Shown: positions 1,746 through 57,860 of the stretch, one piece after another
Numbering within the stretch: position 1 is the stretch's first letter
Layout of the letters: each line of letters starts with the position of its first letter
NCBI GenBank assembly: GCA_902779765.1
Contig: CACZCQ010000009.1
Coordinates: forward strand, 1-64,000
Reading direction: 5' to 3'
From: an uncultured Bacteroidia bacterium
GTDB lineage: Bacteria > Bacteroidota > Bacteroidia > Bacteroidales > UBA932
Length of the DNA stretch: 64,000 nt
The notes under the pieces: model-generated
Database searches by the model: none
What the model was told of the DNA's origin: nothing
Seen by the model: only the letters and a program-made list of their open reading frames with translations
Made by a program: the position numbers and the translations under genes

Positions 1746-3878
1746 TTACTTCGTGATATTCATTTCCTTCAGGAGATAGCCTGCGCCTCCGAACTTGTCC
1801 ATGAGGAAGAGGACGTAGCGGATATCGACGCAGATGCACCTCTGCAGTTCGGGTTCGAACATAACGTCGCTGGACATGCTCTCCCAGTTGCCGTCGAAGG
1901 CGAGTCCGATAAGTTCTCCGTCAGCGTTGAGGACAGGGCTTCCGGAGTTTCCACCGGTGATATCGTTGTTCGTGAGGAAGCAGACCGGAAGGTTGCCGTC
2001 AGCCATTGCATACTGGCCATAGTCCTGGGCGTTGTAGAGTTCCTTGAGTTTGGCGGGTACCTTGAACTCATAGTTCTCGGGATCCTCTTTCTCCATGACA
2101 CCCTTGAGAGTGGTGTAATGCCTGTAGACGAGAGCGTCCTTCGGTGAGTAAGGAAGTACCGATCCGTAGGTGAGCCTCATGGTGAAGTTTGCATCTGGAT
2201 AGGTGGCCTTCCCTTTCTGCCATTCGAGCAGACCTGCGGTGAAAGCCTTGGATCCTTCCCTGATCTTGTCGGCTCCGGAAGCTCCTGCCGCCGCGGGCCT
2301 GCGGCCGGCACCCATTCCGCCGACACCGAACTTCATGTAAGTCATGAGCAGGGAGTTCATCAGCTGGTTGACGGGATCCTTCGAGAGGACCTTGACACCA
2401 TTTTCCTCTACCGCTGCCTGAAGCTTTTCAGGAGAAGTGAAGTTGCTGTTGTCGTAAAGGTCGTTGACATACTTGTCGATGTCAAGGGTGGCGAAATCAC
2501 CGGGAAGTCCGTTGAGGTAGTACTCGGGCTTCGCCTTTTCGCGGTAGTACTTCAGCAGGGCGGCTGCCTCTTCACGGTCGAGGGGCTCGTAGTAATCCTG
2601 ATACCTCTTGGCCTGGGATGCGAGGGCGGTCTTGAATGCCGAAAGGGAATCCTGACCGTCCCTTATGGAACGAGCCATGGTATTCTGTATTCCGCTTGAG
2701 AAGCCCATCAGCTCGATATTGGCCACGGTCTCTCCGATAAGCTGCACGTCAAGGGCGGTGGTGTTGGACTCCACTCCTTCCTTGATGTCCTGGAGGGCGG
2801 TTCCGTACTTGGCCTGGCGTTTCTTGTTCTTTCCGACCCATTTCATGAAGTCGGCTTCCTTCTGCTGCTCTTTCTCGATTATTCCGAGATTCTTGAAAGC
2901 GAGCCTTTCACCCTGCCATTTCTTCCATCCGTTTGCGCTTCCGGCATACTTGCTTGCATATTTCAGGCGGATTGACGGATCCTTCTCCATCCACTTCCAC
3001 ATGATGTCCTGACGCAGGGTCCTGGCATCGATGGAGACAGCCTGACGGTCGAGCATGGACTTGAGCTGGGCCTCGGTCTGGAACCTCTGGGTGCTGCCGG
3101 GATAACCCATGATCATGGCATAGTCTCCCTGCTCGACTCCCTTGAGGGAAACCTTCAGGGACTGGGCAGGTACGTAAGGCTTGTTCGAAGGGGAATATGC
3201 GGCGGGCTCGTTGTCCGGTCCTGCATATACCCTGAACATCGAGAAGTCTCCTGTGTGACGGGGCCACATCCAGTTGTCGGTCTCTCCTCCGAACTTGCCG
3301 ATGGATGCCGGAGGTGCTCCGACGAAGCGGACGTCGGTATATACCTTATAAACGATCAGATACCAGAAATTCTCGTTGTAGAACGAAGTGAGCTGTACCC
3401 TGCAGTTGGGGTTGGCGTCCTGGGCAGACTTCTGGAGAGCCTCCCTTACGGCAGCCTGGTCGCCGGCCTTTGCGAGCTGGTCGGTAACGTCTGTCATGCT
3501 CACCAGGTAAGTCACCGAGAGACCGGGGGCGGGGAGTTCCTGGTCACGGCTCATTGCCCAGTATCCATCCTCGAGGTAGTTGTGCTCGTCGGTAGACAGA
3601 GCCTGGATGGTGCCGTATCCGCAGTGGTGGTTAGTCACGAGGAGACCCTGGTCGGAAATCATCTCGCCTGTACAGCCGCCTCCGAATATCACGATGGCGT
3701 CCTTGAGGGAGGAATGGTTCACGCTGTAGATCTGTTCAGGAGTGAGCCTGCAGCCGAGGTCCTTCATGGCTCCGGCGTTTAGTTTCTGGAGGAGCGGCAG
3801 AAGCCACATACCCTCGTCTGCCATTGCGCCCGTAGTGATCAGCAGGGCGGCGGCGATTGAGCATAAAATCCTTTTCAT
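1746..3878 (-). CDS. S46 family dipeptidyl-peptidase, DPP7 type
   Basis: A 710-aa exported serine peptidase that removes dipeptides from oligopeptides in the periplasm, feeding amino-acid catabolism. The start is set at the internal ATG that gives a clean signal peptide (MKRILCSIAAALL..TTGAMA, then DEGMW); nine extra codons upstream look spurious. The chymotrypsin-like halves show TNHHCGYG (catalytic His, about residues 82-89) and GGNSGSPV (catalytic Ser) near the C-terminus. The residue 18 after that Ser is Gly (FDGNWE), the position that is Gly673 in DPP7 and Arg673 in DPP11 of Porphyromonas, so hydrophobic P1 preference is expected instead of acidic. A TAnnTTTG element lies 24 nt upstream of this start. 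Confidence 0.93.
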   Translation of the reverse strand: MKRILCSIAAALLITTGAMADEGMWLLPLLQKLNAGAMKDLGCRLTPEQIYSVNHSSLKDAIVIFGGGCTGEMISDQGLLVTNHHCGYGTIQALSTDEHNYLEDGYWAMSRDQELPAPGLSVTYLVSMTDVTDQLAKAGDQAAVREALQKSAQDANPNCRVQLTSFYNENFWYLIVYKVYTDVRFVGAPPASIGKFGGETDNWMWPRHTGDFSMFRVYAGPDNEPAAYSPSNKPYVPAQSLKVSLKGVEQGDYAMIMGYPGSTQRFQTEAQLKSMLDRQAVSIDARTLRQDIMWKWMEKDPSIRLKYASKYAGSANGWKKWQGERLAFKNLGIIEKEQQKEADFMKWVGKNKKRQAKYGTALQDIKEGVESNTTALDVQLIGETVANIELMGFSSGIQNTMARSIRDGQDSLSAFKTALASQAKRYQDYYEPLDREEAAALLKYYREKAKPEYYLNGLPGDFATLDIDKYVNDLYDNSNFTSPEKLQAAVEENGVKVLSKDPVNQLMNSLLMTYMKFGVGGMGAGRRPAAAGASGADKIREGSKAFTAGLLEWQKGKATYPDANFTMRLTYGSVLPYSPKDALVYRHYTTLKGVMEKEDPENYEFKVPAKLKELYNAQDYGQYAMADGNLPVCFLTNNDITGGNSGSPVLNADGELIGLAFDGNWESMSSDVMFEPELQRCICVDIRYVLFLMDKFGGAGYLLKEMNITK

Positions 3879-53213: not shown

Positions 53214-53630
53214 ATGAAAAAGCTTCTTGAAGTATTTATTGATGAAGAAGGCAATCTGGACCTTCGATGTGAAAATGAGTCAATTATAGACCATAATTTT
53301 TCTTTTAAGAACCCTAAAAAATCCCAGTCTTTCTTTCGGAGGATCCTTGCCGGCATGATTGACAAGATGTGGGAAAAGAGGGCGACCGGTATCAGCAAGG
53401 TAATAAGGCTTTTGAGCATGGCGGAAATCTGCGCTTGTGCAGAGCCTTATGCCCAGGCCGAGGAATTCTGGTCTACGATGATGTTCAACTGTATTCCTTC
53501 CACCGAGAAATATGCTGATTCCCTGAAAATGAAATATGGGTATAATCCTTCTGCCAAACAGCGTCCTGTCACATTTGGCGACTGTGGTCTTTTCGAATCG
53601 GGTATGTTCACAAGGAAAGGAATGAACTGA
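53214..53630 (+). CDS. Unknown protein coupled to the RAYT transposase gene (138 aa)
   Basis: A 138-aa soluble protein with no family that I can name. The N-terminus is acidic (VFIDEEGNLDLRCENES), the middle is basic and helical (KNPKKSQSFFRRILAGMIDKMW in parts), and the C-terminus has FGDCGLFESGMF. Its TGA overlaps the ATG of the transposase by one nt (TGATG), so the two are probably translated together. Codon and base use are less GC-rich than in the neighbouring genes, as for the transposase. It may be an accessory DNA-binding or targeting factor; that is inference from position alone. Confidence 0.6.
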   Translation: MKKLLEVFIDEEGNLDLRCENESIIDHNFSFKNPKKSQSFFRRILAGMIDKMWEKRATGISKVIRLLSMAEICACAEPYAQAEEFWSTMMFNCIPSTEKYADSLKMKYGYNPSAKQRPVTFGDCGLFESGMFTRKGMN

Positions 53631-54553
53631 TGGGACTGATTCGACCTGTATCAAGAAGGCTTCCGGATGGTACCTTCAGAGAAGTCCTTCCTTTCCATGT
53701 CAGTTTCGAAGGGTTGGAAAAAGCGATAATCTGCAGGGATGAAGGGGATTGCGACACATTGGTCAAATGCATTTTCGTGTGTTCCAAAAGGAAGAACGTG
53801 ATTGTAATTATTTACGCCGTGGTCTCCAATCATGCCCATGTTGCTGTCCTGGCAGGGAAGTTCACTGAAGCCAAGGCATTTGGAGAAGAAGTGAAACGGA
53901 CGTATTCCCAACTATTCAGAAAGAAGTACGGCGAATCCAAAATCTTGCGTGGAACAGATGTCAACGTTCAATCCATAGACACGGATTGGTATCTTAGAAA
54001 CGTATTGGCCTACATTCCCCGGAATGCATATGACAACGGTGCGGAGAGTTTGCTGGATTACAAATGGAGCGGGTTCCGTGCCTTTTTCAGAAGAATCCCG
54101 GATAATAGCCGGCTCAGACCCGTGTCAAAACTGACTCATAGGGAATGGCGGGAGATTATGCATACGGGAGATGATTTGAGTGATGTCCCGTGGAAACTCA
54201 ATTCTGATGATGAACTGGAGCCGGGGAGCGCTTGTGACAATGATTATCTGGAAAAGGCTTTCGGGAATGACGAGACGTTTTTCTACCGGTGCATAGGTTC
54301 GGTGAATGTGTCGGAAATGACCCAGAAGCTTGTAGTGTCTCCTCGGAAAATGAAGACGGATGAAGAGTTTTACAAGGAAATAGATGATGTTTCAATCAGA
54401 TGGTTCATGACAGGAGTTGCCAACCTGCCGATGTCCAAAAAGGCCAGGTTGATACCATATGTTTATCATACGATGAAAACGACGGTGCCCCAAATGGCCC
54501 GAGGTTTTGGCGTTTCCAGGGAGGATATCAGGCGTCTCTTGTGCAAGGTGTGA
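53630..54553 (+). CDS. REP-associated tyrosine transposase (RAYT, Y1 HUH family)
   Basis: A 307-aa single-strand transposase-like protein. The HUH motif is SNHAHVAV (His68, His70), in place of the common PNHxHL. A candidate catalytic Tyr lies in DWYLRNVLAYIPRNAY (Tyr121 or Tyr128), the equivalent of the YIxxNP stretch of RAYTs. The C-terminal 120 residues are an added helical domain ending with a helix-turn-helix-like part (MARGFGVSREDIRRLL). The last codons (C-K-V-stop) are supplied by the right-hand palindrome. RAYTs act on flanking REP palindromes and have been linked to their spread. Confidence 0.8.
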   Translation: MGLIRPVSRRLPDGTFREVLPFHVSFEGLEKAIICRDEGDCDTLVKCIFVCSKRKNVIVIIYAVVSNHAHVAVLAGKFTEAKAFGEEVKRTYSQLFRKKYGESKILRGTDVNVQSIDTDWYLRNVLAYIPRNAYDNGAESLLDYKWSGFRAFFRRIPDNSRLRPVSKLTHREWREIMHTGDDLSDVPWKLNSDDELEPGSACDNDYLEKAFGNDETFFYRCIGSVNVSEMTQKLVVSPRKMKTDEEFYKEIDDVSIRWFMTGVANLPMSKKARLIPYVYHTMKTTVPQMARGFGVSREDIRRLLCKV

Positions 54554-57429: not shown

Positions 57430-57462
57430 TTTGGGAGGATTCATGCTTTTTTACTACCTTTG
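57430..57462 (+). promoter_or_regulatory. Consensus promoter of tRNA-Leu
   Basis: TTTG at 57430-57433, then 21 nt, then TACCTTTG at 57455-57462 match the Bacteroidota -33 / -7 consensus. The tRNA begins 24 nt further on, leaving a short 5' leader. Confidence 0.65.
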
Positions 57463-57485: not shown

Positions 57486-57804
57486 GCCTTGGTGGTGGAA
57501 TGGTAGACACGAGGGACTTAAACAGATTTGAGTGCGCTTTCCGAAAGGAAAGATGTAGAATGTCGTAAATTCAAGGAAGCCTTAACGGGTCAGGCCGATG
57601 GTAATCTTGAGCCAAGCCTCCGGATGGAGGAAGGTGCAGAGACTAGACACGACACACCTAAAGATTGTTGATCCATGGTGAAGGAATAGTCCAGACTACA
57701 AACGGTCATTTCAGGCATATCGCCGGACCGGTGGTAAAAACCATAGTGGTAAGAAAATCCCTTGGCCCGAAACGGCCGTGCGGGTTCGAGTCCCGCCCGA
57801 GGCA
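57486..57804 (+). tRNA. tRNA-Leu(UAA) split by a group I intron
   Basis: Exon 1 is 57486-57519 (34 nt) and exon 2 is 57754-57804 (51 nt); joined they give an 85-nt tRNA with long variable arm. Acceptor GCCTTGG pairs with CCGAGGC with one G-U; D-stem GTG/CAC; anticodon stem AGGGA/TCCCT around loop CTTAAAA with anticodon TAA; variable stem GGCC/GGCC; T-stem GCGGG/CCCGC with loop TTCGAGT. The discriminator is A and CCA is not encoded. The intron falls between T34 and A35 of the anticodon, the same site as in cyanobacterial and plastid tRNA-Leu(UAA). Confidence 0.95.
57520..57753 (+). other. Group I intron (IC3-like) in tRNA-Leu(UAA)
   Basis: A 234-nt self-splicing-type intron without an ORF. 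Exon end ACTT pairs with guide GAGT (57530-57533), leaving the splice-site U-G pair. P2: CTTTCC-GAAA-GGAAAG (57537-57552). P3: TGTCG (57561-57565) with CGACA (57650-57654). P4: TTCAAGG (57570-57576) with TCTTGAG (57605-57611). P5: GCCT/AGGC. P6a: CCTCC-GGAT-GGAGG. P7: GACTA (57641-57645) with TAGTC (57687-57691), which makes the guanosine site. P8: CACC/GGTG. P9: CGGTC/GACCG. The last base is G (57753). The core strings TCTTGAGCCAA and GGTGCAGAGACTAGAC match the known consensus. Confidence 0.93.
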
Positions 57805-57811
57805 CTAATCA

Positions 57812-57860
57812 GACCTTGCAAGTTGTTGATTTATAAACACTTTGCAAGGTTTGTTTTTTT
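57812..57860 (+). terminator. Terminator of tRNA-Leu
   Basis: ACCTTGCAA (57813-57821) pairs with TTGCAAGGT (57842-57850), 20-nt loop, followed by TTGTTTTTTT. The stem shares the ACCTTGCA / TGCAAGGT core with hairpin 1 of the RAYT repeats. Confidence 0.85.

Follow-up and report, generated by a model that had tools for sequence, protein, structure and literature searches.

The window, by which we mean the whole analysed stretch of 64,000 nucleotides, belongs to a genome (G000; 2.48 Mb, 97.75% complete) of what is called a Candidatus Cryptobacteroides-type gut Bacteroidales, and contains a tRNA-Leu(UAA) gene interrupted by a group I intron. The gene, its surroundings and the parts of the intron are as follows, with the basis of each assignment in brackets; for the helices, the figures refer to a comparison of 45 introns.

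57430..57462, plus strand: promoter-like site upstream of the tRNA gene (TTTG, 21 nt, TACCTTTG; pattern match to a Bacteroidota-type consensus)
57486-57804, plus strand: split tRNA-Leu(UAA) gene (exon letters and ARAGORN with introns)
57486..57519, plus strand: 5' exon, up to U34 (sequence and ARAGORN with introns)
57510..57620, plus strand: frame resembling the C-terminal tail of the HNH protein of relatives (78% identity to its residues 148-183)
57516..57533, plus strand: P1 region, whose loop CAGA lies at the place of the HNH gene in relatives (sequence; loop lengths of relatives)
57520..57753, plus strand: group I intron, 234 nt, final base G (RF00028 and ARAGORN with introns)
57537..57552, plus strand: P2 with GAAA loop (97.8% paired, two-sided change in 4/6 pairs)
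57561..57566, plus strand: 5' strand of P3, partner 57649-57654 (100% paired, two-sided change in 2/6 pairs)
57571..57575, plus strand: 5' strand of P4, partner 57606-57610 (invariant, speaking neither for nor against)
57579..57602, plus strand: P5 and P5a (82% and 98% paired; 24/45 sequences lack the first pair of P5)
57611..57635, plus strand: P6 and P6a (P6 invariant; P6a 99% paired, its last pair 86%)
57641..57645, plus strand: 5' strand of P7, partner 57687-57691, which we take to be the guanosine-binding helix (invariant)
57655..57680, plus strand: P8 (inner helix 92.6% paired, two-sided change in 4/4 pairs)
57695..57750, plus strand: P9 and inner hairpin (87% and 99% paired; two pairs of P9 do not form in 20/45 and 10/45, respectively)
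57753, plus strand: terminal G of the intron (read from sequence)
57754..57804, plus strand: 3' exon, A35 to A73, CCA not encoded (sequence and ARAGORN)
57811..57860, plus strand: terminator-like hairpin followed by a T run (read from sequence)

A full-length match to Rfam RF00028 was obtained at 57510-57715 (51.8 bits against a gathering threshold of 50, E 2.8e-10), the sole match at gathering level in the window and also in the genome. A plain ARAGORN scan of the window found no tRNA; with introns allowed, the program reported tRNA-Leu(taa) at 57486-57805 with a 234-nt intron after position 34, and joining the exons gave 85 nt. The sequence-only reading, which had described a group I intron of this length between T34 and A35 of a Bacteroidota tRNA-Leu(UAA) gene, an 85-nt joined product and a drawable set of core pairings, and had suggested the RF00028 check, was thus right on all these points. 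The tRNA flanks found matches in 77/300 genomes in a flank search, and an element resembling the hairpin at 57811..57860 occurs beside tRNA-Leu genes in some other species (short matches, query 6-54). Elsewhere in the window, an ORF at 53630-54553 on the plus strand (307 aa) bears an HAH-type motif, by which we take it to be a candidate REP-associated transposase.

The remainder of the genome encodes 43 other tRNAs, in which the leucine anticodons CAA, CAG, GAG and UAG are represented and no second tRNA-Leu(UAA) was found, nor did the pattern of an unsplit tRNA-Leu(UAA) gene occur in the genome at up to two mismatches; its single match at three mismatches fits the split gene itself. The idea of a dead copy beside an intact gene, named in the sequence-only reading as grounds for rejection, was therefore not borne out, and the window gene most likely must splice, unless a second one resides in the missing part of the genome. 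Among the 43 tRNAs is also a tRNA-Pro with the anticodon AGG, which is unusual in bacteria.

The helices P1 to P9 can all be drawn in the window intron. For the comparison, the window core was combined with 44 random picks from the 96 other distinct cores of the same type (type A, see below). Standard pairs occupied 96.5% of 2378 cells, compared with 92.0% in shuffled and 30-44% in slid controls; both sides had changed in 18/53 pairs (shuffled mean 11.7, 0/500 shuffles as high), and two-sided changes totalled 147 versus 50.6 in shuffles, although relatedness inflates the shuffle test, whereas the slid control retains it. The P3-P9 core with its P3/P7 pseudoknot was supported by covariation, in that P3 covaries, while P4, P6 and P7 are invariant and uninformative alone. 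Chance pairing of the core helices was ruled out by the covariation together with the slid controls, and the window intron very probably works as a ribozyme.

The core pattern GGTGCAGAGACTAGACACG was found in at least 120 stretches of named genomes, and the 5' exon could be located in 113 of them. Such recurrence excludes an assembly artefact, which the sequence-only reading had also considered. The hosts were labelled Bacteroidales, Bacteroidia or families of these, one merely as Bacterium, and included two Candidatus Cacconaster and one Candidatus Cryptobacteroides onthequi; the sources, where given, were rumen, another stomach part or herbivore feces. A model of the intron core (R1) was further applied to genomes of the genus and of the family, which were mostly MAGs. 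Within the genus, R1 matched 113/300 genomes, comprising 91 matches at 158-185 bits (type A), three cut-off pieces of type A, and 19 at 41-68 bits, these last being type B, a divergent form, in 17 cases and type C in two. All 19 sit between ACTT and AAAATC of the tRNA-Leu(UAA) gene, so that three divergent intron types occupy one site within one genus. When Rfam was run on 12 loci with E 0.01 allowed, the two type C loci scored 37 and 31 bits, below the cut-off, and none of eight type B loci gave a group I match.

In the family sample, R1 matched 14/199 genomes and 3/25 genera. No unsplit copy was found at up to two mismatches in these 14 genomes other than a single match in one of them (G255), which is its own split gene; with this gene counted, the unsplit pattern was matched in 153/199 family genomes. 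Direct reading confirmed an unsplit tRNA-Leu(UAA) at 52/60 loci fetched for the unsplit pattern from genus and family. At least four MAGs (G267, G366, G429 and G435) held both split and exact unsplit copies, reflecting either a second gene or contamination.

The sequence-only reading was right about the Bacteroidota host, but its suggestion of a new host lineage is too narrow in scope, since RF00028 matched 26/296 sampled Bacteroidota genomes in 17/140 genera, the genus of the window included. According to ARAGORN, 29 Bacteroidota loci carried introns in tRNA-Arg(UCU), Gln, Thr, Leu(CAA/CAG/UAA) and others. In other families of the phylum, six tRNA-Arg(UCU) introns (L494, L497, L498, L499, L502, L503) lie in a Pro-Arg-Cys tRNA cluster, and one (L514) adjoins tRNA-Pro only. 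Outside the phylum, a tRNA-Leu(UAA) gene with a group I intron was noted at 1899-2189 of plasmid CP094621 of Bradyrhizobium sp. ISRA435 (L368), which has been typed as a conjugative plasmid. Searches of the open-licence literature, which leaves out most subscription journals, listed no account of group I introns in tRNA genes of Bacteroidota; this is weak evidence of novelty.

The introns of this family differ chiefly in the P1 loop, which measures 8 nt in the window by the length measure applied to its relatives. Among the at least 120 named copies, the loop was of up to 13 nt in 65, 14-60 nt in 8, 61-499 nt in 12 and at least 500 nt in 28, and was unread in 7, where the 5' exon was not found. 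Setting the boundary at 490 nt gave 29 long loops (the 28 plus L137, 498 nt) and left 19 intermediate ones. An uninterrupted HNH frame, defined as open from an N-terminal GGNY motif to the HNH motif CPNCH, was present in 28 of the 29 long loops and broken in the remaining one (L053); outside the named copies, the frame is broken in L003, and open without an ATG in the usual place in L014. The HNH frames are under purifying selection, with a median NG86 dN/dS of 0.08 in the 30 pairs that were not saturated and a median pN/pS of 0.25 in the full set of 377 pairs (0.09-0.18 in the four closest). Pfam HNH (PF01844) exceeded its cut-off in 2/4 relatives' proteins scanned, and PHROG 10822 was matched by 3/3 (E 4e-46 to 1e-52). 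An NCBIfam scan gave the common HNH domain only, far below cut-off; a sequence search of solved structures reached E 0.12 at best, and Foldseek with the predicted structure retrieved nothing from the PDB at an E value of 0.001 or below. The prediction (mean pLDDT 79.7, pTM 0.48) was mostly confident to about residue 150, save for residues 51-70, and poor beyond. The ends of the HNH-bearing loops are predicted to pair in a P1-extension helix, for which the median z over 28 copies was -4.2; a promoter-like site was matched in 19/28 of these loops, as against 67/1400 shuffles (4.8%), and was absent from the other 9.

No endonuclease gene was found in the window intron, and in the whole genome the only match to the HNH protein is the core-encoded tail-like frame at 57510..57620, which has one internal stop. 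This frame is open to at least codon 30 in 54/55 bare, 19/19 intermediate and 23/23 HNH-bearing distinct cores; being equally open in introns lacking the HNH gene, it is imposed by the ribozyme, and is hence no fossil by itself. A requirement of the HNH protein for the tail encoded by the core was also considered, and was rejected because the frame is open in bare cores and the structural model is poor past about residue 150. No recognisable remnant of the HNH gene was found in the P1 of the window. In another intron, L011, most of the 169-nt P1 loop resembles unrelated DNA with inner repeats more than it does an HNH remnant.

The flanks of alleles at the same locus were then compared together with a tree of the introns, both restricted to loci with the two exon ends; 129 distinct cores of the 138 found were kept, and 3 added by hand gave 132 rows. 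The nearest intron to that of the window by path on this tree is L080, which bears an uninterrupted HNH frame, and the upstream flanks of the two are homologous (75% over 1241 aligned bases). The window's upstream flank was likewise 83% identical to that of L158 (37-nt loop) and 74% to that of the bare L142, while no homology to its downstream flank was found in these three loci. Pairs on both sides were closer elsewhere: in their best segments, the flanks of the bare L009 and L057 were 91-95% like those of the HNH-bearing L147, and those of type B introns with (L229) and without (L230) the gene were 95-98% identical. The HNH-bearing L154 and the unsplit L217 shared 75% upstream, and 83% downstream over 94 nt only. 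With intermediate loops left out, the HNH and bare states require at least 20 changes on the tree, a rough count because 67/129 inner branches have support below 80, and one that repeated gain of the HNH gene by bare introns would also produce. Long branches also meet in this tree. The type A cores on it, 97 in number, all fall in a single clade with support 97.

Relatives of the endonuclease were also found in phages. When IMG/VR was searched with the HNH alignment, at least 552 relatives were obtained among the 600 candidates listed, and 16 of the best 80 lie inside a split tRNA, 15 being tRNA-Leu(UAA) and one tRNA-Ser by ARAGORN. The P1 loop, measurable in 11 of these 15, spans 497-553 nt; L397, L398 and L401, which agree in the lengths of intron and P1 loop and start with identical letters, may be one element. 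The phage intron L373 scored 155 bits with the type B model, of which two Cryptobacteroides members scored 152 and 170, and L375 scored 133 bits with the type A model. In the tree of HNH proteins (29 of 32 loci tried), the type B proteins group with viral L373 and L376 (SH-aLRT 94), while the 10 type A proteins form their own clade with that of L375 outside. Judging from these similarities, exchange between phage and host is likely for type B. Viral L379 joins type C solely via a very long branch of the intron tree and was not counted. Of ten ORFs beside phage introns, four matched PHROG (sigma factor, unknown, protease and glycosyltransferase), none of them beside L373 or L379, so that the viral nature of these two rests on IMG/VR.

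Split tRNA-Leu(UAA) genes were also present in the Prevotella phages Lak-B1 and Lak-C1 and in the 735-kb phage record LR756501. The Lak-B1 and Lak-C1 genes (L365, L366) apparently contain two group I introns, with cores at about 2840-2978 and 3048-3316 that both score with the core models; as read from the letters, the former lies in the D-loop and the latter in the anticodon loop. For some split genes the anticodon label by ARAGORN differs, for example Ser in L565, L566 and L569 and a Leu(gag) spanning both introns in L365 and L366; the exons of these genes read ACTT|AAAATC, and the letters were preferred over the label. In a 595-kb phage record (LR756511, 1324-2110; L580), a tRNA-Leu(UAA) intron carries an HNH gene of the same family in its P6 region instead of P1, which is an independent placing of the gene. 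Type-B-like introns were seen in tRNA-Ser(CGA), according to ARAGORN, in the crAss-like phage cr115_1 upstream of terL (L577) and in Lak-B1 (L579). Further viral contigs (L258, L264, L267, L285, L295, L296, L302, L304, L316, L332 and L349) have group I introns that ARAGORN places in tRNA-Thr, Gln, Asn, Asp, Lys and His; 14/120 pattern loci lie in tRNAs, three of these Leu(UAA). According to a 2014 review, the phage introns known at that time were all in protein genes despite the many phage tRNAs (PMC3984707).

From these results, we consider it quite likely that the window intron is spliced from tRNA-Leu(UAA) and represents the end state, free of the endonuclease, of a mobile family of HNH group I introns. 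That its ancestor carried the HNH gene is the most likely account of this end state, as suggested by L080, the tree and the upstream flank. The sequence-only reading had left the origin between transfer and retention from old times, a choice that misses the family with HNH in P1, its stages of decay and its phage relatives.

Textbooks present the intron of tRNA-Leu(UAA) as old and immobile. The window could hold such an intron of the kind found in cyanobacteria, passed down vertically without having moved in this lineage, with the HNH genes of its relatives as later parasites. This would agree with the use of the same tRNA in cyanobacteria, as stated in a review (PMC4033280), with the single clade of type A cores in the lineage and with the bare form being commonest (65 of the at least 120 named copies). 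We nevertheless regard vertical descent as unlikely in view of the patchy distribution of the intron in the genus, the unsplit genes read at most loci fetched, the three divergent types at the same site and the small share of family genera matched. A direct origin of the window intron from a phage tRNA gene, instead of another bacterium, appeared less likely still: viral contigs do have introns at the same site with the same HNH family, including L373, L375 and L376 with the scores and protein grouping given above, but the viral cores are distant from type A, the type of the window, whose 97 cores form one clade, and the type A HNH proteins exclude that of L375. As for the insert being dead, unable to splice or produced by misassembly, with UUA codons read in another way, the failure of plain ARAGORN to detect the gene and the roughly 2% of the genome that may be missing could be cited in its favor; given that no other tRNA-Leu(UAA) was found, that covariation holds the structure and that the intron recurs in more than 100 assemblies, we find it hardly credible.

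For the preferred reading, that of an end state of mobile introns, the course of splicing in the cell, cleavage and homing, and the direction of change and of transfer, we infer to be as follows. The transcript of the split gene would fold such that the internal guide base-pairs with the 5' exon in P1, external guanosine would promote a cut after U34, and the freed 5' exon would attack behind the terminal G to yield the joined 85-nt tRNA. In close relatives, the P1 loop holds the gene of the putative homing endonuclease, in many cases together with a promoter-like site for it, and the long P1-extension helix bracketing the gene would permit the ribozyme to fold around it. Genes for tRNA-Leu(UAA) that lack the intron are most likely cut in the anticodon arm by the HNH endonuclease, and their repair would copy the intron into them; after the site has been filled, the HNH gene may decay to a bare loop, as in the window.

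The group I introns of cyanobacterial and plastid tRNA-Leu(UAA) genes belong to subgroup IC3, and those of cyanobacteria may interrupt the gene at 34/35. For the window intron, ARAGORN with introns gave 34/35. A review puts most bacterial tRNA introns at 37/38 (PMC4033280). By description, the cyanobacterial and plastid introns share with the window intron the tRNA, the location in the anticodon loop, the size, the order of helices and the ORF-free bare form, and differ in that the host here is a member of Bacteroidota and relatives have an HNH gene in P1. A cyanobacterial tRNA-fMet intron with its own endonuclease was reportedly described by Bonocora and Shub in 2001; it is said likewise to encode, within a bacterial tRNA intron, a homing endonuclease for the anticodon region, albeit in another tRNA and with another nuclease fold, in contrast to the HNH gene in the P1 loop of tRNA-Leu(UAA) here. 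The phage HNH endonucleases of PHROG 10822 are of the same protein family as those of the relatives, which however reside within bacterial tRNA introns and have their tail encoded by the ribozyme core. The Beggiatoaceae and Thiomargarita have a tRNA-Leu(TAA) with a putative group I intron (PMC4853749), and thus the same tRNA is split outside cyanobacteria, though in sulfur bacteria and not in Bacteroidota. The Jug phages, huge phages of gut Bacteroides, are described as dense in group I introns and HNH genes, with splicing supported by metatranscriptome reads; these introns are described in protein genes, the word tRNA being absent from the main text as available, whereas those here are in tRNA (PMC12363816). 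The class of element is known; the host, the HNH gene in P1 at tRNA-Leu(UAA) and the phage counterparts appear to be new.

A broader and rather doubtful possibility is that tRNA-Leu(UAA) is contested ground between gut Bacteroidales and the phages that infect them, where the divergent introns of types A, B and perhaps C, with HNH genes, would circulate between phage and host copies of the tRNA. If so, a filled site would be uncuttable by a phage-borne HNH enzyme, and bare introns would persist by shielding the sole tRNA-Leu(UAA) gene.

Split tRNA genes are commoner in Bacteroidota than the literature searched indicates. The window gene was missed by a plain tRNA scan, and the Rfam model is blind to one intron type (type B). 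The sister-species and viral relatives with a DNA-cutting gene suggest how this long-known insert can spread. In one tRNA and largely within one genus, introns with an apparently conserved endonuclease, its graded loss, empty alleles and phage relatives are found together, and the question of how tRNA introns spread thus becomes directly testable.
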